A stretch of 22,915 bases of DNA from a virus: positions 1 to 22,915 of the IMG/VR virus record IMGVR_UViG_3300021138_000187. One strand, given 5' to 3'. This document shows positions 2,978 to 13,803 of the stretch, in pieces; within the stretch, counting starts at the first letter, position 1, and each line of letters starts with the position of its first letter. Both the position numbers and the translations under genes were made by a program. The notes beneath the pieces were generated by a model that saw only the letters and a list, made by a program, of their open reading frames with translations, had not been told where the DNA came from and made no database searches.

Positions 2978-3199
2978 TTATGCCCATACACAAACAGGGT
3001 TAGCCGGAATTATCCTATATGGTTCTAATGTTGATAAGTCAAAATCCTGATCGATAAGTCTGACGTTCAAATGCCACCCATCTTTATTTGGTATACTTCC
3101 GACTTCATGGGCAGCGAATTGATGTGACCATTGTGCGATAAAAGTATTATTATTTTGATCAATATTTGCCATACCTATGGGTATCAGAGCAGCTAACAT
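2978..3199 (-). CDS. Small conserved tail-associated protein, probably 5'-frameshifted
   Basis: The intact part reads from ATG 3199 and ends with GWHLNVRLID, LEPYRIIPANPVCVWA. This is a recurring ending of small phage proteins found next to tail fibre genes; its function is unknown to me. The annotated ATG has no Shine-Dalgarno. Upstream in the same frame the codons give FYKFPDQQT, which looks like a natural family N-terminus, but they are cut off by a TGA. A better start, ATG 3237-3235, overlaps the previous gene's TGA as ATGA but is one base out of frame. A run of seven T (minus strand, 3223-3229) lies between. With eight T, or a -1 slip on U UUU UUU, the protein would begin MIDFFYKFPDQQTMLAAL. 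I therefore suspect a true gene of 2978-3237. Confidence 0.65.
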   Translation of the reverse strand: MLAALIPIGMANIDQNNNTFIAQWSHQFAAHEVGSIPNKDGWHLNVRLIDQDFDLSTLEPYRIIPANPVCVWA

Positions 3200-3233
3200 T
3201 GTCTGTTGATCAGGAAACTTGTAAAAAAATCAA

Positions 3234-4946
3234 TCATGTGCCAGACCACTCTCTAACAGTTCTTGCATTATATACAATCGGAAAATATGTTATCGATTTG
3301 ATATATGCTGTTTGTCCGCCATTTATATTTAAATTATTGACATAAGGAAGAATACACCCATAAAGTTCTTCTGCGGTTAGGGACCCTGCTCTACTTAATC
3401 CATTAACAGACATAGCAGCGTAACCATTTCTATATGATAATATTTGTTTAAATGTAAAAGATTGTGAAGTAAACCCGTAATTTCCATTGAAGTCAAAAGT
3501 TGGTGGTATATTATTAAATGATCTTATATAACCCCCGCTACCACCACCAGTTAGTTTTATATTACCAGAGGTTGGTCCATATAATCCCATAAGATATATA
3601 TTAGCTCCAGATATTCCAATAGAATACCCGTTCATGATAAAGGTTCCACCTGATTGATTATATGCAGGAAGAAAAATAGGAGATGCCATAGTTGCGCTAT
3701 CAACTGATCTAGTTGTAGTAACATTTGCTGTATATATCGGAGTAGTGGCATATCCAGCACCACCTGCTTCAATCTGAGCGAAGTCCATCGCAACAGCATC
3801 ACCAGAGTTCTGTATTTGTACACCAATGCATGGGTTTGCTAATGTTGCTGATAAAACAACACGATTCCATAAACCATTTGATAAATCTACTGTAGACCAA
3901 GTTGTTCCATCAATAGTGATCTGAATAGAACCAGTCACAGTCAAAGCTTTGAGGTAGATGGAATACACCTGTGCTGCCGATGTTGCGGTCAACTGCTGAA
4001 TACAGGTCGCAGAACCGGAAGTAGATGTTAAGCTCGTTGCAGAATTTGATATTCCATCAATACCTGTTTGATTGAGTGCGGCTGTTATATTTGTTCTGAC
4101 CCAAGAAACTGGTAGAGTGGTTGCAGTCGTTGGCTGGTATGTTTGTGTTACGCTGCCGTTTTCAAGCTGTCCACCCCAGATGTAGATGCCGCTGTTTACG
4201 GTCAAGCCAGTATCTAAAGTCCCATCACGAGAAGGTGTTATCACAATAAGTTTTAAAGATGCTACAGTTGTAGTAATAGAGCATCTATACCATCCACTGC
4301 CAACAGAAGTAATTGCTGCTGTTGTTCCTGATGCTGTGGGTGCTGTTGAAACTATTCCGTTGATGAGATCAAATGCTGCCCAGAACCCAGATGCATAAGC
4401 GCCAACAGTCATGATTCCATAGTTGTAATCCGCCGCTTTCATATAGACGCTTGATGTAAATGTAGTTGTCAACGATGCATTTGCTTGACCAATATATGCA
4501 TTTCTGGCAGTTTTGCTTAAGGTGTTGCTATAAATTTTTTGACCAGTGTTTGATCCATCGGGGGCAGTTGTAGATGCTGGAACTCTTGTTATGAATGCAG
4601 CATTACCATCATAGTTCCATGCAGCGTTATCGAATGCTTGTGAGTAGGTTAAGAAGTTTTGATTCTTCGTTGCATCACGACACCAAAGAGCTAAATTTGT
4701 TCGCTGTTCTTCAATTAACAGACCATTTACTGTTGATGTGGCTACTAGTGGAGTGTTTGTAGATAAAAATGCTCCTTGGGCTTTATAATTGGTGGCAAAT
4801 GTACTAACTTCAATTTGAAACATATCTAGAAGAGTCCCAACATTACCGCCAGTAAAACTTATTTGTATATTTGCTGATGGGAATATAAGAAGAACAGTTA
4901 CTCTATACCATCCAGAACCAACACTTTGTATTTGCGCATTACCCAT
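3234..4946 (-). CDS. Multi-domain carbohydrate-binding-like tail protein, C-terminal portion after an in-frame TGA
   Basis: This frame is the direct continuation of the gene at 4962-6227. The two are in the same reading frame, separated only by TGA 4964-4962 and five sense codons. The ATG at 4946 has no Shine-Dalgarno, and the protein begins in mid-domain with IQSVGSGWYRVTV, the normal end of a repeat module. Residue ~75 carries GLLIEEQRTNL. A full module starts at ~98 (FLTYSQAFDNAAW) and ends at ~222 (SVGSGWYRCS). A further beta-sandwich-like module follows, then a concanavalin/LamG-like end with AYIKSITYFPIVYNARTVREW. These modules are typical of phage tail proteins presumed to bind surface sugars. 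Independent translation is doubtful; the piece is likely either the distal half of one interrupted gene or made by readthrough. Confidence 0.7.
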   Translation of the reverse strand: MGNAQIQSVGSGWYRVTVLLIFPSANIQISFTGGNVGTLLDMFQIEVSTFATNYKAQGAFLSTNTPLVATSTVNGLLIEEQRTNLALWCRDATKNQNFLTYSQAFDNAAWNYDGNAAFITRVPASTTAPDGSNTGQKIYSNTLSKTARNAYIGQANASLTTTFTSSVYMKAADYNYGIMTVGAYASGFWAAFDLINGIVSTAPTASGTTAAITSVGSGWYRCSITTTVASLKLIVITPSRDGTLDTGLTVNSGIYIWGGQLENGSVTQTYQPTTATTLPVSWVRTNITAALNQTGIDGISNSATSLTSTSGSATCIQQLTATSAAQVYSIYLKALTVTGSIQITIDGTTWSTVDLSNGLWNRVVLSATLANPCIGVQIQNSGDAVAMDFAQIEAGGAGYATTPIYTANVTTTRSVDSATMASPIFLPAYNQSGGTFIMNGYSIGISGANIYLMGLYGPTSGNIKLTGGGSGGYIRSFNNIPPTFDFNGNYGFTSQSFTFKQILSYRNGYAAMSVNGLSRAGSLTAEELYGCILPYVNNLNINGGQTAYIKSITYFPIVYNARTVREWSGT

Positions 4947-4961
4947 TACTATACCAGTTAA

Positions 4962-6227
4962 TCAGACAGAATACGAAGAATTTATGGTAAGGGAACCTCC
5001 ACCCGCAGAAGGATTAGATAAAGACATTGTTAATGTAGAAGTTACGTTTGATACATAAAAACTTAAAGTATTATTGGATGCAAGTGTCCCTAAAGTTCTT
5101 GTAAGTCTACTAGCAGTGACATCAGTAAAAGAAGCTGCCGTATTTAAACCAGTCAAACTGTTTAAATTACCAAAAGATACGTTTGATGATGCAGGAAAAT
5201 TTGACCCAATTGTTGTCCAAGCACTAACATTTGCTGGACTTGAATATGTTAATATATTTTGTGGTAGCTGAGTGGTTGATGACCAATCAAATCTTGGTTG
5301 TGCGTATGGATTTATTATTGGAGACTCTAGTTGAGCACCAGTGACGAACATACCCGAAGTTCCATCTCCGGTATAACCACCCAAATTATATGAGTTAGTA
5401 GCTACAATTTTATCAATCATACCAATAGAAAAATATTGACCCCCCAAGGGAGAACTTATTGCAACAGAAACTCTTGCCCAACCATTTCCGGCATCAGTAA
5501 AAGATACCCCAGTAACCGCATCTTGAATACCATCAGTATAAGTTTTGTATTGCCTACCAGCAAGGTCAACAACTGCCCATCCCCATCTATTAAAACCTGT
5601 ATAATACATACCTAACACAAGGTATCTTTTAGCACTTGTAGGGTCTTCTTTAGCAAAAACAGAAAATACTTGATTATAGGGATATTGCACTGCATCATTT
5701 TGTCTGTTATACATTGCAGAAAGTGTAATAGCACCAGAGTTTTCAGTAATTCGTTGCGCAGCAGCAAATCCAGTTGGTGGAGTTACTGCATTATTCGCAA
5801 CCGTTAATCCATTCTTAGTCCACGCAGCATTAGTAAAGTCTTCTGAATATGGTTCAAAATTTGTTACTGCTGTCGATGATGTTGTCTGAACATATGGCGT
5901 AGGTGGAACTGTGTAAAACGCTTTTGACAAAACACCATTTGCATTTATATAATTTGCATCAGACGCCCTTGTATAAGTCAAAGAATCCATAGAACGACCT
6001 TGACCGAAACCTTTGACAAAGCCTCGATCATTTACGAAATCCAAATCAAGAGTAGCACCCGGCGCTGGCCAAGCTTGTGCCCAGCCAGCTTCAATATTTC
6101 TTTTACCAACATTTGGACCTTTTGATAAACCGGCTCCAGTTCTTGACAAATCTGCGTTATAGATTGGTCCAGAAGCCAGAGTTGCACTTGGTCCTGATAT
6201 AATACCAGATACTAACCCTGATGACAT
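4962..6227 (-). CDS. Multi-domain carbohydrate-binding-like tail protein, N-terminal portion ending at an in-frame TGA
   Basis: The gene starts at ATG 6227, overlapping the previous stop as TAATG. Residues 1-50 are a Gly/Ser-rich attachment region (GLVSGIISGPSATLASG). Residues 60-100 have LDLDFVNDRGF and LTYTRASDANYINANGVL, a head found in many phage tail proteins. Module 1 (residues ~121-313) reads FEPYSEDFTNAAW ... NRWGWAVVDLAGR ... DAGNGWARVSVAI ... GAQLESP. It looks like a carbohydrate-binding-type beta sandwich. Module 2 starts at ~322 (NILTYSSPANVSAW) but stops at residue 421 before its expected GWYRV segment, which appears just past the TGA in the same frame. The whole unit, 3234-6227, would be about 998 codons. 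A likely adhesin or tail tip, truncated by nonsense change or sequence error. Confidence 0.75.
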   Translation of the reverse strand: MSSGLVSGIISGPSATLASGPIYNADLSRTGAGLSKGPNVGKRNIEAGWAQAWPAPGATLDLDFVNDRGFVKGFGQGRSMDSLTYTRASDANYINANGVLSKAFYTVPPTPYVQTTSSTAVTNFEPYSEDFTNAAWTKNGLTVANNAVTPPTGFAAAQRITENSGAITLSAMYNRQNDAVQYPYNQVFSVFAKEDPTSAKRYLVLGMYYTGFNRWGWAVVDLAGRQYKTYTDGIQDAVTGVSFTDAGNGWARVSVAISSPLGGQYFSIGMIDKIVATNSYNLGGYTGDGTSGMFVTGAQLESPIINPYAQPRFDWSSTTQLPQNILTYSSPANVSAWTTIGSNFPASSNVSFGNLNSLTGLNTAASFTDVTASRLTRTLGTLASNNTLSFYVSNVTSTLTMSLSNPSAGGGSLTINSSYSV

Positions 6228-6925
6228 TAGTACTCTTCAATCATCGCCGATACATACATCAAAGTACCAACAGTCAATGGAGGAGCAGTTCCTGGTGTAG
6301 ATGCAGAAAGCTTATAACCAGCCTTCAATGGCAATACTCTTTTACCGTTAGCATCATATGGCAGAGCAGGCATCAAAGTACCACTAAGGGCATCGACAGT
6401 TGCAGCAGTACCGTTAGTACCAGAAGAAGCAGGAATTGATACTGCACCAAGTACATAGTTGTTACCTGTTGTATCAGTAAGCCAGAAAGTAATAACACGT
6501 GCAGCAGTATCCGTTGAAGAAATATTCAAAGACTTAACTACAGCATCGTTGGTGTTTGAAGTGTAAATTGTCTTATATGGTCCCATAATAAGGTTGACTG
6601 TGGCATTTGTTGAACCAGAATCAACTGTCGGAGCATTTGACGTAACAGTTGGAAGAGTAAAGAATGAACCCTGTGCAGTTACAACAGGAATTGATGTGAT
6701 AGCGTTAGCTGTTGAGTTTACAGCCGTTACTGTTGCGGTAAACGTTGCGGCAGTAATAACGTTTGCAGTACCGTTAGCGACAGTAAATGTTCTGGTTCCG
6801 ACTGTCAAGTTAGAACCTGCGTTGTTAGCTGCAACTGCAATTACAGCATAAGGGTCGTTAGAGCCGAATGGTACAATTACAGTGTTAAGGTTCTGAGTAA
6901 AATTAAGTGATTGTGACTTTGCCAT
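6227..6925 (-). CDS. Conserved phage virion structural protein (232 aa)
   Basis: The protein is Ala/Thr/Val-rich and beta-predicted, without membrane segments. The C-terminal half has a pattern common in phage virion proteins: SLNISSTDTAARVITFWLT, then YVLGAVSIPASSGTNG, then a stretch with P-A-L-P-Y-D-A-N-G-K, LPLKAGYKL and MYVSAMIEEY at the end. A related order occurs in proteins annotated as tail or virion structural proteins in many phages; the precise role is unknown to me. GGGA in the last codons of the upstream fibre gene can act as its Shine-Dalgarno. Its own TAA overlaps the next ATG (TAATG), so translation of the large tail protein downstream is probably coupled to it. Confidence 0.65.
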   Translation of the reverse strand: MAKSQSLNFTQNLNTVIVPFGSNDPYAVIAVAANNAGSNLTVGTRTFTVANGTANVITAATFTATVTAVNSTANAITSIPVVTAQGSFFTLPTVTSNAPTVDSGSTNATVNLIMGPYKTIYTSNTNDAVVKSLNISSTDTAARVITFWLTDTTGNNYVLGAVSIPASSGTNGTAATVDALSGTLMPALPYDANGKRVLPLKAGYKLSASTPGTAPPLTVGTLMYVSAMIEEY

Positions 6926-6926
6926 G

Positions 6927-7589
6927 TTATGATCCCATTAATAAGAGTGGATTTAGGTTAATTAATGTTGCTGTTGTTGGTGTAATTGAAGTATTTATTG
7001 TTGAATTTCCAACAGAAATTGAATTGTTGACTGTTACAATTCCACTTGCCGAGAAATAGGCAACAGTATTATTATTGGCAATAATTCTCAAATCTCTTGC
7101 TGAACCAGTGCCTGCATTCTGTGTTCCAATTGTCAATATATTAGTGTTAGTTTGCCAGTCGAATACTGCTCTTTCATAGTTCGATGCATCAGTATAAGTG
7201 TTATATAGACGAAAAGTCTGAGCAGTTGTTCCAAAACGCTGGGCTAGGATACTGGCAGCATCACGATACAACGACAAATCTGGAGCACCCCAACCAGAAG
7301 CGGAAGACGTCCAATTAAAAGAAAATGTTCCGGGTATTACTATACCACCCGTTCCAATTGCTAAAGTCTGTTGTGTGTTATTCGTAAACCTAACTACAGA
7401 ACCAATAGATGTCAATAAACCATTGAAATATACTTGCCCTGTATTATCAACAGAAAACTTGTTACTTCCACTAACGTTTAAACTGAATAGGTTGGAGCCA
7501 GACACATTTGTTCCATCCAATACCAGACCTCTTTCTGGTAAGAATGGGTTAAAATTGCTTCTTAATCCGTAATCTAATCTAGCAGCCAT
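6927..7589 (-). CDS. Tail-fibre-like protein, tandem paralogue B (220 aa)
   Basis: The N-terminus MAARLDYGLRSNFNPFLPER, then GLVLDGTNVSGSNLF, is nearly the same as in the neighbour at 7605-8507. This suggests a shared attachment domain. The middle is a variable beta region. Residues ~125-170 carry FRLYNTYTDASNYERAVFDW and ILTIGTQNAGTGSARDL, a motif frequent in aquatic phage fibres. The end, ISVGNSTINTSITPTTATLIN, contains the shaft repeat shared with many proteins here. AAGGA precedes ATG 7589. A TATAAATA box lies 35 nt upstream, inside the tail of the paralogous gene. Probably arose by tandem duplication followed by divergence of the central part. Confidence 0.75.
   Translation of the reverse strand: MAARLDYGLRSNFNPFLPERGLVLDGTNVSGSNLFSLNVSGSNKFSVDNTGQVYFNGLLTSIGSVVRFTNNTQQTLAIGTGGIVIPGTFSFNWTSSASGWGAPDLSLYRDAASILAQRFGTTAQTFRLYNTYTDASNYERAVFDWQTNTNILTIGTQNAGTGSARDLRIIANNNTVAYFSASGIVTVNNSISVGNSTINTSITPTTATLINLNPLLLMGS
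7516..7553. repeat. 38-bp perfect direct repeat, copy 1 (contains hairpin 7521-7540)
   Basis: Bases 7516-7553 are identical to 8434-8471. They encode the conserved FNPFLPERGLVLDG segment near the start of the two tandem fibre genes. Within it, 7521-7540 is a 7-bp perfect inverted repeat (TACCAGA / TCTGGTA) around a 6-nt loop. Surrounding bases are similar but diverged, so this is the best conserved core of the duplication. Confidence 0.85.
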
Positions 7590-7604
7590 ATTTGATCCTT
7601 GGCA

Positions 7605-8507
7605 TTAAGCGGCAGTTAATGCCATATTTATAAGTGAAATAGTAGTTGGTGAAATAGTCGTTCCAATCGTAGGGGTGCCTACAGATACACCTGTTGTAGC
7701 ATATATGTTTGATGGGCGATTATTGGTCGCACCACCAATCTGTACTGCACCATCAACGTAAGCTAAAAAATTGCCCGCCGCATCAATATTCCATGTGGGT
7801 GTCGCACCTTTAAAAAATCTGATTGTTCCATCATAATAAAGATTGATTGAGCCAAAGCTTCCAGATGTAAAACCAAATGTTGCGTAACCAGTAGAACCGG
7901 GAGTTGCGCCACCAAATGAACTTCCCCCTGAGATGAAGTTAATGGCTCTTGCTGAACCAGTACCAGCATTCTCAGTACCGATTCTTATAACGTTAGCAGT
8001 CGTCTGCCAGTCAAAAACACCACGTTCATAATTTGATGCATCAGTATATGTGTTGTAAACTTGGAATGATTGAGATGTTGATCCATTTAATATGCCAACA
8101 AATTTATTGCCTGATGTGCTAAGTGAAATATTATCATTTTGTGAAGATATAGTTACCCAAGAAAATCCAACACTACCAGAACCACCAATAGTTATTCCGA
8201 AATTTCCGGAAGTGATAAAGGATGAAGAACCTGTATGACCTAATTGAAGACTTTGACTGCCTCCACTGCCTATAACAACATCAGCGCCTCCGCTACCAGT
8301 TGTAACATACAATGCGGGTCTATTAACAACTCCATTCAAATTAATCGTCGTAGTACCAAATTTATCAACTGTAAAATAGTTCAGACCGTTTCTTTGTATG
8401 TTGAATAGATTGCTTGCAGACACATTCGTACCGTCCAATACCAGACCTCTTTCTGGTAAGAATGGGTTAAAGTTACCTCTAATTCCGTAGTCTAGCTTTG
8501 CAACCAT
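7605..8507 (-). CDS. Tail-fibre-like protein, tandem paralogue A (300 aa)
   Basis: Residues 1-35 (MVAKLDYGIRGNFNPFLPER, then GLVLDGTNVSASNLF) match the paralogue at 6927-7589. The central ~100 residues are a Gly/Ser-rich region (TGSGGADVVIGSGG, GHTGSSSFITSGNFG) absent from the paralogue. The shared motif FQVYNTYTDASNYERGVFDW and IRIGTENAGTGSARAI follows. The C-terminal end is SVGTPTIGTTISPTTISLIN, the same terminal module as paralogue B. AAAGG is placed 6 nt before ATG 8507, just after the stop of the 54-codon gene. The shared ends with a different middle suggest modular exchange in a fibre or tail-tip protein. Confidence 0.75.
   Translation of the reverse strand: MVAKLDYGIRGNFNPFLPERGLVLDGTNVSASNLFNIQRNGLNYFTVDKFGTTTINLNGVVNRPALYVTTGSGGADVVIGSGGSQSLQLGHTGSSSFITSGNFGITIGGSGSVGFSWVTISSQNDNISLSTSGNKFVGILNGSTSQSFQVYNTYTDASNYERGVFDWQTTANVIRIGTENAGTGSARAINFISGGSSFGGATPGSTGYATFGFTSGSFGSINLYYDGTIRFFKGATPTWNIDAAGNFLAYVDGAVQIGGATNNRPSNIYATTGVSVGTPTIGTTISPTTISLINMALTAA
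7625..7632 (-). promoter_or_regulatory. T4-type late promoter-like box (TATAAATA)
   Basis: An exact TATAAATA on the minus strand sits in the last codons of the fibre gene at 7605-8507, 35 nt before the ATG of the paralogue at 7589. The spacing is like that of T4 late promoters. Because it overlaps coding sequence (ATA AAT codons) and such octamers occur by chance in AT-rich DNA, the call is tentative. Confidence 0.4.
8434..8471. repeat. 38-bp perfect direct repeat, copy 2 (contains hairpin 8439-8458)
   Basis: Identical to 7516-7553 and at the equivalent codons of the upstream paralogous fibre gene. The repeats start 918 bp apart, so recombination between them would fuse the head of one fibre to the body of the other. 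The 7-bp stem, 6-nt loop hairpin is retained in both copies. Confidence 0.85.
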
Positions 8508-8516
8508 TTATTACCT

Positions 8517-8681
8517 TTAACTTGGTTTTGGTTCTGTATCGGTTTCTTTTGCAGCATCTTCAAGCTTCTTGACAAGATGTAGAGCCGCTTCTGCCGCTTG
8601 TAGTCCTGCTGACTTGACAGCAACATCAATAAGGTTCATCAGTACCTGAGCTTCTTGCTCTGTGTAAGTAACTGTAATCAT
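8517..8681 (-). CDS. Small conserved phage protein (54 aa)
   Basis: A 54-codon gene starts at ATG 8681 with a strong AAGGAG Shine-Dalgarno seven to eight nt upstream, and ends in TAA at 8519-8517, just before the fibre gene at 8507. The protein begins MITVTYTEQEAQVLMNLIDV and continues AVKSAGLQAAEAALHLVKKL, ending in an acidic/proline tail (KETDTEPKPS). It is predicted to be mostly helical and soluble. Short proteins with an LLxLIDxAVKxxGLxxAExA pattern recur beside phage tail and fibre genes; I know no function. Its G+C is higher than that of its fibre neighbours. Confidence 0.75.
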   Translation of the reverse strand: MITVTYTEQEAQVLMNLIDVAVKSAGLQAAEAALHLVKKLEDAAKETDTEPKPS

Positions 8682-8699
8682 ATATTTCACTCCTTAATA

Positions 8700-8918
8700 T
8701 TAAACTTTATATTGGTTAGCATAACTCTGTGAAGCCATCTCCATGACAAACTGCACATAGTCATTATCAGTATTTAGGATAGCCGGATTAGGAATCATTG
8801 TTCCGGGGTTATTCGGATCATCAATTTCCTCTGATAATACTGAATTATAAGCATTTCTGGCAGCAGTGATTCCTGCTAATTTATTTTCATCAGTAATTGT
8901 AATGGTAAAGTCTGTCAT
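8700..8918 (-). CDS. Small conserved phage protein (72 aa)
   Basis: The protein starts MTDFTITITDENKLAGITAA and ends DYVQFVMEMASQSYANQYKV. The combination TITITD...GITAARxAYN with a C-terminal YVQFVxxxAxxSYANQY is a recurring small-protein family in tail regions of aquatic phages, function unknown to me. A short Asp/Pro/Asn-rich loop in the middle (DDPNNPGTMIPN) separates two likely helical parts. TAGGAG, overlapping the stop codon of the upstream fibre gene, lies just before ATG 8918 and gives a good Shine-Dalgarno. It sits between a fibre gene and the 54-aa gene, suggesting a role in tail or fibre assembly, unproven. Confidence 0.7.
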   Translation of the reverse strand: MTDFTITITDENKLAGITAARNAYNSVLSEEIDDPNNPGTMIPNPAILNTDNDYVQFVMEMASQSYANQYKV

Positions 8919-8927
8919 AATTTACTC

Positions 8928-9704
8928 CTAAAAACCTACAAGAGATAGTTTTGTTATTGGTGAAACGTAAGCAATCGCATTAGTATATGCGATAGCTGCT
9001 GCTCCTAATGAATCATAATTTGCTAAATTAGATTGTAACTGTGCATTAGAAACAACATTAACCGCTGCTACTGATCCAACAAATAATGTGTTATTGGCTG
9101 TTCCTGAATATGATGTAGAATTGATTGTCGAATTGACAGAAGCATTTCCAATAGTTAAATTAGAAGTAATGTTCAATGTATTCATCGCAGTAATGGCTAC
9201 ATTGTAGTAAGCGCCTGAACCAGTACTTAATGATAATGTATTATTATTGCTTTGATATGTGAATGAATTTACGCCAGCAACAGAAGCTATTGAAACGTTT
9301 GTTACACGACCAGTAGCGTCAACAGTAATGATGGGAATTGCTGCGCTGTTACCATAAGTGTTTGCTGTTACGCCAGAATTAGGCAGTAATGTTGCGCTTA
9401 AAGTTCCCGTGTTAATATTTGATGCATTCGAAGCAAAAGCAATAGCATTGGCGTAAGCAACCGATCCACCAGCGCTGTTGCTGTTTATCCAAATACCGTT
9501 TTCGTATGCAAGAACGTCATTATTGGCGGGATTTGCAATAGTAACATCTAATAAATCATTGATAAGTTTAACGCCCGAAGAAATTGTTGGTATATTCTTC
9601 AGTGTGACAGGTTCAGTTGTCTGTATTATGCCTGCAGTGGCGTTTGTGGAAATTTTTATTGTAGTCGGCTTGGCAACTACTACGTTTATGACTGTATTAG
9701 ACAT
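8928..9704 (-). CDS. Tail-fibre-like protein (258 aa)
   Basis: The N-terminal ~45 residues (INVVVAKPTTIKIS, VTLKNIPTISSGVKLINDLLDV) form a short domain that can attach to the tail. PANNDVLAYENGIWINS near residue 60 is a typical phage-fibre linker. The central part contains TGTLSATLLPNSGVTANTYG and ITVDATGRVTNVS, a repeat type seen in many phage side fibres. Shaft repeats ITSNLTIGNASVNSTINSTS follow. The end, YANAIAF / AIAYTNAIAY, looks like a short helical or beta segment. No strong Shine-Dalgarno is visible (AGAAAGAA before ATG 9704). A weak promoter-like ACTAAATA lies at 9728-9735 on the minus strand. Confidence 0.7.
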   Translation of the reverse strand: MSNTVINVVVAKPTTIKISTNATAGIIQTTEPVTLKNIPTISSGVKLINDLLDVTIANPANNDVLAYENGIWINSNSAGGSVAYANAIAFASNASNINTGTLSATLLPNSGVTANTYGNSAAIPIITVDATGRVTNVSIASVAGVNSFTYQSNNNTLSLSTGSGAYYNVAITAMNTLNITSNLTIGNASVNSTINSTSYSGTANNTLFVGSVAAVNVVSNAQLQSNLANYDSLGAAAIAYTNAIAYVSPITKLSLVGF

Positions 9705-9747
9705 TATTCTTTCTATTCTTTAGAGAATATTTAGTAAAGTGTATCAA

Positions 9748-10131
9748 TCACCCTGAAGTATATCCATTCGCCCACCAAGTATTATTAGTGGAGAATATTC
9801 CGGCAGTTACAGAAGGAGTTATTGTAACAATACCCTCGACAACTCTTGAAATTGCATTTGTTGTTGTATCTGTAATATTAACGTCATACACATACCTGCC
9901 AGAATATAAATTCGCTGTTATATAAGCATCCATTTCAAGAGTTATAGTTCCGGCAGTTGTGTTTATAGTTGTATTGAATGGGACATACGTTTGTGAAGTA
10001 TACCACTTTTTCAAAACAGAATTGGCTGTGAACCCAACAAGATCTAACGGATCGCCATTTTGATCCGTTAAATTAAGAGTCGCATTGAACGTTGCGCCTT
10101 GGTCAATTACTAGATTTGCTTTTGTTGCCAT
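9748..10131 (-). CDS. Conserved phage protein with beta-sandwich features (127 aa)
   Basis: The head, TKANLVIDQGATFNATLNLT, is followed by DQNGDPLDLVGFTANSVLKK and SGRYVYDVNITD...RVVEGIVTITP. This order is that of a small immunoglobulin-like protein family found widely in tail regions of aquatic phages, generally annotated as hypothetical or structural. It is likely a baseplate or tail accessory. Its ATG overlaps the TAA of the preceding fibre gene by one base (TAATG), implying coupled translation. It ends in TGA at 9750-9748, one of the three TGA stops in the window. Confidence 0.7.
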   Translation of the reverse strand: MATKANLVIDQGATFNATLNLTDQNGDPLDLVGFTANSVLKKWYTSQTYVPFNTTINTTAGTITLEMDAYITANLYSGRYVYDVNITDTTTNAISRVVEGIVTITPSVTAGIFSTNNTWWANGYTSG

Positions 10132-10868
10132 TATACTATTACCCTGGCAAATTTAACTGTGGTATTTGAAGAAATTGGCGTAAAATATAACAGAACATTA
10201 GTTCCGCTTGTTAATGTGGAAAAAACACCAACATAAGAATTAGAAGTATACGAGGCATATTCTGTGATGAACGCCGTAGTTGTATTATGAACAATCATTA
10301 TTTTAGAACCATAATGATTGTTTGAATTATTGTCGTTCACGGAAAGAAGGTATTCCGCGGAATTGTAAGTTGCCATTGGCCAGGAATCAATCAAAGCTGT
10401 TCCAACGCCTGTTGTAGTTATTTGGACATTGGATATACTTGTTTGTAAAATAACTGGCGCATAAGTTCCATTAGCATTGAGGAAATATTGGCCGTTGGAT
10501 ACTTGAGAGGCTGTGGGTATTTTTAAACTTAAATTCGCAGTAGAGTTCGCAAACGAAATAGAAGTTGTATTGATTGTGGCGTTTGTTGTTGAATTTCCAA
10601 GAAATATCGAATTAGTATTAATAGAAACATTTGATACAGAGTTACCTATCGTTATTGTATTACCGATAGATATAGAATTTACCACAGATATATTATTAGT
10701 AACAACTGAATTTGAATAAACGTTACCAGTTACCGAAGCATCTCCGACCGCAGCATTCGAACCAACAGTTACAATCGAATTTGATACAGCAGATGCAAGT
10801 TGGTTAACTGTTGTTAACAGTTTTTGAAATGTGTCCGTTGTTGCGACGTTGCCTATAAGAATTGTCAT
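10131..10868 (-). CDS. Fibre-like virion protein (245 aa)
   Basis: The N-terminal ~30 residues look like a coiled, helical attachment region (TFQKLLTTVNQLASAVSN). Residues ~35-115 are the Asn/Ser/Thr shaft repeat (SISIGNTITIGNSVSNVSIN, IFLGNSTTNATINTTSI). SNGQYFLNANGTYAPV is a common linker. The C-terminal ~100 residues form a domain I recognise from many marine T4-like phage virion proteins: LIDSWPMATYNSAEYLLSV, KIMIVHNTTTAFITEYASY, LYFTPISSNTTVKFARVIV. Possible Shine-Dalgarno AAAGAGA lies in the end of the 70-codon gene 6 nt upstream. Role: short tail fibre or baseplate-associated fibre, inferred. Confidence 0.75.
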   Translation of the reverse strand: MTILIGNVATTDTFQKLLTTVNQLASAVSNSIVTVGSNAAVGDASVTGNVYSNSVVTNNISVVNSISIGNTITIGNSVSNVSINTNSIFLGNSTTNATINTTSISFANSTANLSLKIPTASQVSNGQYFLNANGTYAPVILQTSISNVQITTTGVGTALIDSWPMATYNSAEYLLSVNDNNSNNHYGSKIMIVHNTTTAFITEYASYTSNSYVGVFSTLTSGTNVLLYFTPISSNTTVKFARVIV

Positions 10869-10874
10869 TTATTT

Positions 10875-11087
10875 TTATCTCTTTAATAGTTGTTGTAACA
10901 TATTCTTAATTTCTTTGACATCATTTTCCACTCTATTTAATCTTTCATCATTTAAAGCGGCTTTCTGTGCATTTTGTTTTTGCTTTTTATAGGCAATCAA
11001 TTTAGCATTATCCACATTTAAAATCGCTCCGGACCTTGGATCTTTAACGAGTCCTTCTACATCTGTCTTTATGTATTTATTACTCAT
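10875..11087 (-). CDS. Small coiled-coil phage protein (70 aa)
   Basis: I chose ATG 11087 (MSNKYIKTDVEGLVKDPRSG) rather than the longer frame from TTG 11123. The short form begins one base after the TAA of the giant gene at 11089, and the longer form would overlap that gene by 35 nt with no Shine-Dalgarno. The sequence VKDPRSGAILNVDNAKLIAY followed by a Lys/Gln-rich helix and NRVENDVKEIKNMLQQLLKR at the end suggests a coiled coil. Similar small proteins with a 'DxxTGAxLN' start and helical tail occur in structural regions of marine T4-like phages; the function is unknown to me. It may be a fibre chaperone or connector, speculative. Translation is likely coupled to the upstream gene. Confidence 0.7.
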   Translation of the reverse strand: MSNKYIKTDVEGLVKDPRSGAILNVDNAKLIAYKKQKQNAQKAALNDERLNRVENDVKEIKNMLQQLLKR

Positions 11088-11088
11088 T

Positions 11089-13803
11089 TTATAACTGTAA
11101 GGCCAGAGCTTGTAAACTATCAACCAATGGAACTTTAGAACTATCCTGTGCTTGTAAGATAACCTTTATCTGAAACTGCTTGAACAGGGTATACAAAGAA
11201 CCTCCAGCATTTTGATATGTTAATCCTTGTGGAGTTACCAAGTAAGCAGTAGTTCCTGTATTAGAATCCGACCAAGAAGTTCCGACAGTCAAATAAGTTG
11301 CGTTCGCAATTGAGACAACAACTTGTTCATCATTATCAATACCAATGATATTTCCTGGCATTAACTGACCAGTAAAATTAGTTCCGCTACCAGTAATAAT
11401 ATTACTTGTATTTGATACAGTAACTGTGCCAGTTAAAGCTGTGTTACTTGAAGTAGACATATAAGCAGTAGTTGGAGGAACTACAACGTAATAAGCATTA
11501 CTCGAGTAATTGCCATTAAATGGAGCATTAAGAGTTAATGATGTCGTATTGGCAATCGAAACAATTTGTCTTGCTGTTTCACCAAATGACGAATTAGCCA
11601 TCATATTAATGAAATTGCCTACTTGATTTTCTTGTCCAAATAAAGTATTAACACCAGTAATTGTTGTATTTGTATTGCTAGCAGTAATAAATCCTGATGT
11701 TGGAACTAAGTTATAATATCCATAAGTAGAATATGTAAATTCTCTAACATCATATGGATTGCTTGGATCACAAAATACGCTATCGCCTTGATTAAACATA
11801 GGAGTCCAAGTTTTTATGGACATTGGATCTGTATCTTGACCATTCAAGAATTTTACATAAACTTTGATGTCAGTACCTGGGGGTCTGTGAGCTGATAAGA
11901 TAATTTGAAGATCTTCAGAATCTTGTCCAGCAGCCAAGGTTACAATTTGTGAAATATATTTCGTTCTTGATGGACCGTTGTTGAAAAATTCATTATAAGA
12001 AATTTGTGGCCAGTCGACAAGGTTTCTTATGATTAGCGTATTATTTTTAACAGTATCAATCAATGGCGAAATAAACTGAGAATCAGTAGTCAGGCGCGCA
12101 TGAATAGTCATAGAATTATTGCCGCCGATATTAGTAACTTCGTTCGTGCGACTCAAAACTACTCTTTCTTGATCATAAAATTCTGTTTCCAATCCTGTTT
12201 GAATTGGGAATGTATTTGAATCATAAGAATATGTATTATTTACACCCGTATAATCGTAATTTACGGAAGTTCCGGATGGTGTAATATAAGAAAATTGGCC
12301 AACAATATCATTAAGAACTGGATTGTATAAAGCGGCAACGTTGGCATATGCCACTAAAGTAGAAGTGTTAACAAACGAAGAATTTGATAATGCATTCGCA
12401 GCCAATGCAGAATTAGCAAATCTATGTACTTGAAGAAACGTAGTTGTTCCGAAATTTCCAGTTGAGTTATCAACGTAAAACAATCCCTTAACGCTATCAT
12501 AGTATTTCAACACACCGTTAATACTGGTATTAACTGTATTTGGTGTTGAATTTGAAGCTGAAAATACAGTATCTCCTGGCAAAACAGTGGAAGATAAGTT
12601 ACTGTAACCAATTCCATAAACGGAAAGATAATCAACATTGTGGTTATTAAAATAAACGTCGCCAATACCAGAAGAAAATTTAGCAACATTTAAATTGAAC
12701 TTAATATATTCAGTTTGCAAAGCTGTCCATTCATTCATGGTAGAACCATAAAATGCAGTTCCTACTATAGGTTGGCTGTAAACTTGGACTCCAGTCGTAA
12801 TGTCAATATCGCCAAGATTCGCGCTGTAAACTTGAATATCTGGGTCATTATTATCGGGCTTAACAATAAATGCATATTCTGTGCCATTGTTAAGAAATAC
12901 TGGCGATTCAAAAGTAAATCTTGTGGCTACGTTTGCGGTAGAACTAGTCGTAATTTCATTGTAGTTTAGGTGCACCGTGGAAAACGGCAAAATAGATGAA
13001 CCATCCGGGTAACCATTGTTTATTTCACAAAGGTAAACAGTAACACCATTGTTGCTGATCAAAGATCCCTGTTTAAAGAAAAGATCAAGAGAAATTGCAA
13101 AAACACCGGCTGAATTATCAGGAGTATTAATTGTCAATCCTTGCGCGATTGGTTCATAATAATATGAAAGATTAACGATGTCAGGAATTGTTGTTACGTG
13201 TACATTAGTAGTAGTTGTTGATACTGTATTAACAACTGGAACAACTGATAAAATTGGGTTAACTGTTGTTAAAGTAACTACTTGTTTTGTCACACTTAGA
13301 TTTGAAGCAGTATACGAAGCTGAGGCGGAAGTCGTGATTGCGTCATTGCCTTGAGATAAACTAGTTACGTCAGCAAGTTCTATTACGTGATCGCCAGTCT
13401 GAAAAACGCCTGCAGGAACGTTGAATTGACCAGCGACATGTCCTTGTGAGTCGGTAACAATTGGAGTTCCCCAAGTTCCGGTCAGCTGAACTGTATTTGC
13501 AGTGGAAGTATCCAAACTAATTGAATTGTTGCCAGAACCTCCGCTCTGTAAAGCGGGAATAACACCAGGAGCGCAATATTGATCTACCAAAATACTATTG
13601 AAAAAAACGTGAATTATTTGATTTGGTCTCATGTTATAAGCATAGAAACCAATAACTGTGGGCGCCATGTATGGCTGTAGAGAAACGTCAGTGACGAAAT
13701 TGCCAACCGTAACTGTATTAGACTGAGTTTGAACTTGAAGCTGTAAACCCTGACTAGTAGAAGTTGTTGTTGTAGAAGTTGTTGTCGTATTAGTTGCTGC
13801 CAA
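11089..13803 (-). CDS. Giant virion structural protein, second component (904 aa), TTG start
   Basis: The start is TTG 13803 with AGGAGA placed 7 nt upstream, the best Shine-Dalgarno of the large genes here. The protein opens with a Thr/Ser tract (residues ~4-17). VGNFVTDVSLQPYMAPTVIG and a following NMRPNQIIHVFFN (residues ~33-70) match the C-terminal half of giant cyanophage-type virion proteins. At ~545-690 come VVLSRTNEVTNIGGNNSMTI and NPYDVREFTYS, also conserved there. Two tandem ~65-residue modules of type TGxxTxF...G (at ~700 and ~790) follow, and the C-terminus reads FKQFQIKVILQAQDSSKVPL. It follows the 1290-residue gene by 21 nt. In related phages I recall these segments as one polypeptide with the DUF4815 part. 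Likely a baseplate or tail-periphery protein. Confidence 0.7.
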   Translation of the reverse strand: MAATNTTTTSTTTTSTSQGLQLQVQTQSNTVTVGNFVTDVSLQPYMAPTVIGFYAYNMRPNQIIHVFFNSILVDQYCAPGVIPALQSGGSGNNSISLDTSTANTVQLTGTWGTPIVTDSQGHVAGQFNVPAGVFQTGDHVIELADVTSLSQGNDAITTSASASYTASNLSVTKQVVTLTTVNPILSVVPVVNTVSTTTTNVHVTTIPDIVNLSYYYEPIAQGLTINTPDNSAGVFAISLDLFFKQGSLISNNGVTVYLCEINNGYPDGSSILPFSTVHLNYNEITTSSTANVATRFTFESPVFLNNGTEYAFIVKPDNNDPDIQVYSANLGDIDITTGVQVYSQPIVGTAFYGSTMNEWTALQTEYIKFNLNVAKFSSGIGDVYFNNHNVDYLSVYGIGYSNLSSTVLPGDTVFSASNSTPNTVNTSINGVLKYYDSVKGLFYVDNSTGNFGTTTFLQVHRFANSALAANALSNSSFVNTSTLVAYANVAALYNPVLNDIVGQFSYITPSGTSVNYDYTGVNNTYSYDSNTFPIQTGLETEFYDQERVVLSRTNEVTNIGGNNSMTIHARLTTDSQFISPLIDTVKNNTLIIRNLVDWPQISYNEFFNNGPSRTKYISQIVTLAAGQDSEDLQIILSAHRPPGTDIKVYVKFLNGQDTDPMSIKTWTPMFNQGDSVFCDPSNPYDVREFTYSTYGYYNLVPTSGFITASNTNTTITGVNTLFGQENQVGNFINMMANSSFGETARQIVSIANTTSLTLNAPFNGNYSSNAYYVVVPPTTAYMSTSSNTALTGTVTVSNTSNIITGSGTNFTGQLMPGNIIGIDNDEQVVVSIANATYLTVGTSWSDSNTGTTAYLVTPQGLTYQNAGGSLYTLFKQFQIKVILQAQDSSKVPLVDSLQALALQL

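Follow-up and report, generated by a model that had tools for sequence, protein, structure and literature searches.

RcGTA head fibres mediate attachment to capsule polysaccharide (PMC7296036, PMC10218006). The profile of the module repeated in the gene described here matches the RcGTA head spike fibre Rcc01080 (E 5e-46), as well as E217 gp45 (6e-23) and Pa193 gp46. The A1 protein of phage Q-beta is its coat protein extended by UGA readthrough. UGA readthrough is also documented in E. coli (PMC5373646), and the tail gene E of phage P2 uses -1 frameshifting at TTTTTTG (PMC3091744).

The window analysed here comprises an entire IMG/VR fragment (22,915 bases) and carries the tail region of a T4-like myovirus (gp9/10-like N-terminus, DUF4815). 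It holds a fibre gene whose frame is broken by one TGA, and next to it a small gene with a lesion of its own. The features of the locus are as follows.

3234-6227, minus strand: fibre gene, one 998-codon frame (stops counted) with one interruption; 997 aa if read through
4962-6227, minus strand: N-terminal piece, 421 aa, with the conserved 50-aa N-terminus, module 1 and the front two thirds of module 2
5316-5864, minus strand: module 1, GTA_spike_fiber domain (profile match)
4719-5297, minus strand: module 2, interrupted by the TGA; read through, it covers GTA_spike_fiber 8-170/182 at 35.8 bits (cut-off 36)
4962-4964, minus strand: in-frame TGA with T as the next base, inside module 2
4944-4946, minus strand: internal ATG, the nearest start past the TGA, with a weak ribosome site
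4149-4688, minus strand: module 3, GTA_spike_fiber domain (profile match)
3678-4130, minus strand: module 4, divergent and GTA_spike_fiber-like, with approximate borders (profile 12-153)
3234-3677, minus strand: C-terminal tip, lectin/concanavalin-like, a family-typical end of such fibres
3223-3229, minus strand: run of seven T, the frame-change site of the phrog_1361 gene
2978-3237, minus strand: next gene, phrog_1361 family; its ATG overlaps the fibre stop, the 0 frame ends after 14 codons and the family frame lies in -1

Re-reading of the minus strand gives the same frame as the original prediction. From 6227 towards 3234 it runs through 421 sense codons to the TGA at 4964-4962, then through five further sense codons (TTA ACT GGT ATA GTA), 570 codons from the ATG at 4946 and the final TGA at 3236-3234. 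The two other frames are shut within about 30 nt of the internal TGA, thus only the 0 frame continues and a simple local shift is no explanation. About 33 stops would be expected past the TGA in an unconstrained stretch of the same composition, and none of 500 simulated stretches stayed open. The open frame downstream of the TGA is not a product of chance.

Both pieces match phrog_5939 'tail protein' and NCBIfam NF048003 GTA_spike_fiber. With 154.1 bits for the C half, 69.9 for the N half and 221.9 for the read-through protein, they belong to the NF048003 family, whose curated domain cut-off is 36 bits; the cut module alone, at 35.8, falls just under it. The read-through protein has four GTA_spike_fiber matches. 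The second of them covers positions 8-170 of the 182 in the profile (E 1.2e-8) when module 2 is read through, while the front of the module alone gives no match to the GTA_spike_fiber profile and the rear alone matches positions 113-170 only. Since module 2 is whole only across the TGA, the two pieces are not complete domain sets in their own right. The closing segment of the module, QSVGSGWYRVTV, stands directly past the TGA, as had been described. In a model of module 2 of medium confidence (mean pLDDT 65) the TGA corresponds to residue 112, in a predicted beta-sandwich strand formed by residues 111-115.

One alignment claim needs correction. Other copies of the module had been said to carry V-D-L-A-G at the position of the TGA. 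The module profile, built from 123 copies, aligns the N of TINSS with the D/N-L column; this N stands 6 residues, or 8 columns of the alignment, ahead of the TGA, hence the V-D-L column precedes the stop. In the profile alignment the TGA falls in a variable loop rich in G, T and S, and in the MAFFT alignment it falls in an insertion. The position in a variable loop allows no inference on the residue that once stood at the TGA. A conserved Asp at this place, considered as a clue to the mutation behind the stop, was dropped because the alignments disagree there.

The fold of the module matches that of E217 gp45 (3e-6) and, weakly, CBM61. The model of the tip (pLDDT 66) resembles CBM40, sialidase lectin domains and galectins with TM of about 0.5. 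Together with the sequence matches to the RcGTA fibre, these likenesses agree with the earlier description of sugar-binding-type modules and a concanavalin-like tip. Judging from domain and fold likeness, we suggest that the full-length protein most likely serves as a fibre that binds polysaccharide.

The only strain-level relative found in IMG/VR is L002 (IMGVR_UViG_3300003375_000044, 47.9 kb), which is 99.3% identical to the window over 7946-12710 and 98.9% over 1770-2970. Its ORF L002:5638-8661 is uninterrupted and encodes 1007 aa; its alignment starts at residue 1, reaches about residue 859 and spans the TGA. The fibre genes share only about 58% aa identity, with dS of about 1.4: the N-terminal 50 aa are 98% identical and modules 3-4 are 75% identical, and the final 147 fibre residues are wholly replaced together with the next small gene. 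Since the flanks are 99% identical but the fibre is highly divergent, comparison of the two sequences identifies the fibre as a hypervariable cassette set in genomes that are otherwise almost the same. The divergence of the L002 allele also means that the original residue at the TGA is not readable from it. In the 6 kb that is 99% identical to L002 there are 30 synonymous and 13 non-synonymous coding differences and no coding indels. The contig thus looks clean elsewhere, and a consensus error would have to be local.

Relative to L002, dN/dS is 0.29 for residues 51-317 of the N half and 0.13 for modules 3-4; within module 2 it is 0.47 before the TGA and 0.94 after it, in a stretch that is short and hard to align. 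Low dN/dS downstream excludes a long-standing untranslated state of that half. On these ratios the downstream half has been under purifying selection, and translated, for most of its history, which does not date the TGA itself. The uninterrupted sister ORF, the domain match spanning the TGA and the low downstream dN/dS uphold the proposal of one gene broken within a repeat module. With a single lesion and the gene intact in L002, the locus has the form of a pseudogene or nonsense allele.

Several other features were observed in the comparison of the two contigs. The fibre with its tip and the small gene that follows have diverged or been replaced between window 2980-7205 and L002 4650-8940, which reads as an exchange of the receptor-binding cassette. 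Two paralogous genes at window 6927-8507 correspond to one L002 gene (L002:4204-4932) composed of the front part of the one and the rear part of the other, which looks like a product of recombination between paralogues. The gene 10875-11123, which starts with TTG, overlaps the end of the gene 11089-13803 by 35 bases (11089-11123) in another frame, with the same arrangement in L002. The sister contig also has a tmRNA gene with the tag ATYASNDNVPYSAMKVAA, tRNA-Arg(tct) and tRNA-Ile(tat) (L056:9381-9758 and 10366-10539).

Among 52 contigs with 123 modules, a module is cut away from a contig end in two only, the window and L009. The latter, which comes from another sample, is the phage also represented by L008, L010 and L016; set against these three contigs, its sequence shows gaps but not a single mismatch. 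These gaps break a 1310-aa fibre into pieces at L009:1933-3372, and one of the borders is an in-frame TAG. Gaps without mismatches point to an assembly fault as the probable cause of this break, and L009 thus provides a precedent for an artefactual TGA in the window. An in-frame TAA between two module ORFs of L004 was set aside as an ordinary gene pair, the second gene having its own start. Search of IMG/VR with the exact DNA pattern around the TGA returned no second copy of the allele, where the third stop base was held fixed so that some variants are missed. The upstream gene and a two-sequence profile, used as baits, returned the same sister contig L002 alone. Three distant carriers of the module were found among genome contigs, and GenBank phages gave matches at 25-31% only. 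To see whether the contig end might be chimeric, the first 150 bases of the window were compared with plasmids, and no match was found.

The second lesion lies in the small gene after the fibre. The phrog_1361 frame (profile 7-92 of 92) is found in -1 from just past the T7 run at 3229-3223, and the number of residues from the ATG up to the point where the match begins fits the profile. In four other contigs the family is matched as a single frame with no inner stops. As a bait the small gene returned no relative among viral contigs and two partial matches among phages. The T7 lesion and the fibre TGA are 1.7 kb apart, in the region of greatest difference between the near-identical strains. Two neighbouring lesions in the most variable region are better explained by an error confined to this part of the consensus, or by decay of the cassette, than by regulation.

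How, then, should the TGA be read? Programmed or leaky UGA readthrough would yield two fibre forms, a short one of 421 aa and a long one of 997 aa, and the frame past the TGA, which is open and has been under constraint, agrees with it. However, the TGA lies inside a domain and not at a boundary, therefore a short form released there would be misfolded at its end. The next base is U, in general a strong context for termination and not one that stimulates readthrough; no RNA structure was found downstream of the TGA (z-score +1.13). Nor is the stop conserved: L002 does not keep it, and, the assembly-type case of L009 aside, no other fibre among the 52 contigs shows such a split. Since readthrough of UGA exists in E. 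coli, low-level leakage could occur, but the use of such leakage is unsupported and we consider this reading improbable. A reassigned TGA, read as Trp or another amino acid, would also give a single open frame. Trp is encoded by TGG in nearly all genes, with 8 such codons in the N piece and 10 in the C piece, and TGA is the terminator of the gene 9748-10131 as well as of the fibre. The internal TGA described here was the sole one encountered, and a scan of the entire sister contig (L056, L057, L050) found no UGA-reading tRNA. Sense use of the codon is thus hardly credible. No sign of UGA recoding was found, be it sense use, a suppressor tRNA, selenocysteine or a downstream RNA element, and the readthrough option of the original prediction gains no support from the RNA structure, the codon usage or the tRNA genes.

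A two-part fibre would result if the C-terminal piece were a second gene, reinitiated at the ATG at 4946. The start lies 13-15 nt past the stop, close enough for coupled reinitiation. The lack of a Shine-Dalgarno before this ATG, noted earlier, is broadly right (duplex energy -2.9 kcal/mol); yet two normal genes of the window have sites no better (-0.9 and -2.9), and since sound genes can be equally weak in this respect, the weak ribosome site alone is weak evidence. Two observations weigh more heavily against a second gene: the C piece would start within the beta-sandwich, with a module 2 tail that matches the profile only at 113-170, and no relative is split at the TGA position, the sister gene being fused. 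No promoter or terminator signal in support of a second gene was seen beyond chance. A strong ribosome site and separate homologues of the two halves, which had been named in advance as evidence against one gene, were looked for and neither was found; a two-gene arrangement is about as improbable as readthrough. The T7 run and the TGA might also act as cassette switches, where slippage at T7 toggles the downstream gene, or -1 frameshifting takes place as in P2 gene E. The run qualifies as a slippery string, the small gene keeps its start and has its family frame in -1, and the P2 string is a precedent. The shift, however, would fall about 4 codons past the start, slippage cannot switch a TGA, and the family is one unbroken frame in the four other contigs, which makes switching very unlikely. 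Less likely still is a variable receptor-binding cassette in which a leaky TGA and T7 slippage together produce particles with short and long fibres.

Hence, we suggest that a single unprogrammed TGA in module 2 would have hit a receptor-binding fibre gene composed of an N-terminal anchor, four putative sugar-binding modules of the RcGTA head spike type and a lectin-like tip. Such an unprogrammed interruption of one gene, through error or recent nonsense mutation taken jointly, is highly probable. The TGA may be an error in the consensus of this metagenome, or a genuine nonsense mutation of recent date, carried by a minority allele or a defective one; the lesion itself is most likely either artefactual or recent. 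An error or assembly origin is slightly preferred, as a tentative choice, and a real recent mutation is a plausible, somewhat less favoured origin. If the TGA is real, only the 421-aa product would be made; it would stop within an incomplete beta-sandwich and lack modules 3-4 and the tip, which would amount to loss of function.

As it stands, a broken copy of a known fold is of little weight. It does offer a caution, because for a lone in-frame stop in a phage fibre gene from a metagenome, error or recent loss is the cheapest explanation. Set side by side, the window and L002 clearly document an exchange of the receptor-binding cassette between phages of almost the same genome. Genuine readthrough of the stop, were it to take place, would make the gene a rare instance of fibre length under regulation.

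The comparison with Q-beta A1, where one UGA gives a minor extended virion protein, holds at the level of the idea only: the stop there ends a complete protein, whereas the TGA of the window cuts a fold. The ORF L002:5638-8661 is the same gene in the sister phage and differs by having no interruption, another tip and another following gene. E217 gp45 and Pa193 gp46 (PDB 8env, 9b45) are myovirus baseplate or fibre proteins of Pseudomonas phages, alike in the sequence and fold of the module but uninterrupted and different in overall architecture. The RcGTA head spike fibre Rcc01080 (PDB 6tb9; NF048003) has the same domain by sequence, and both halves of the window gene pass the NCBIfam cut-off. 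However, unlike Rcc01080, which has 325 aa and one module, the window gene encodes a long phage tail-region protein with four tandem modules, a lectin-like tip and the TGA interruption.
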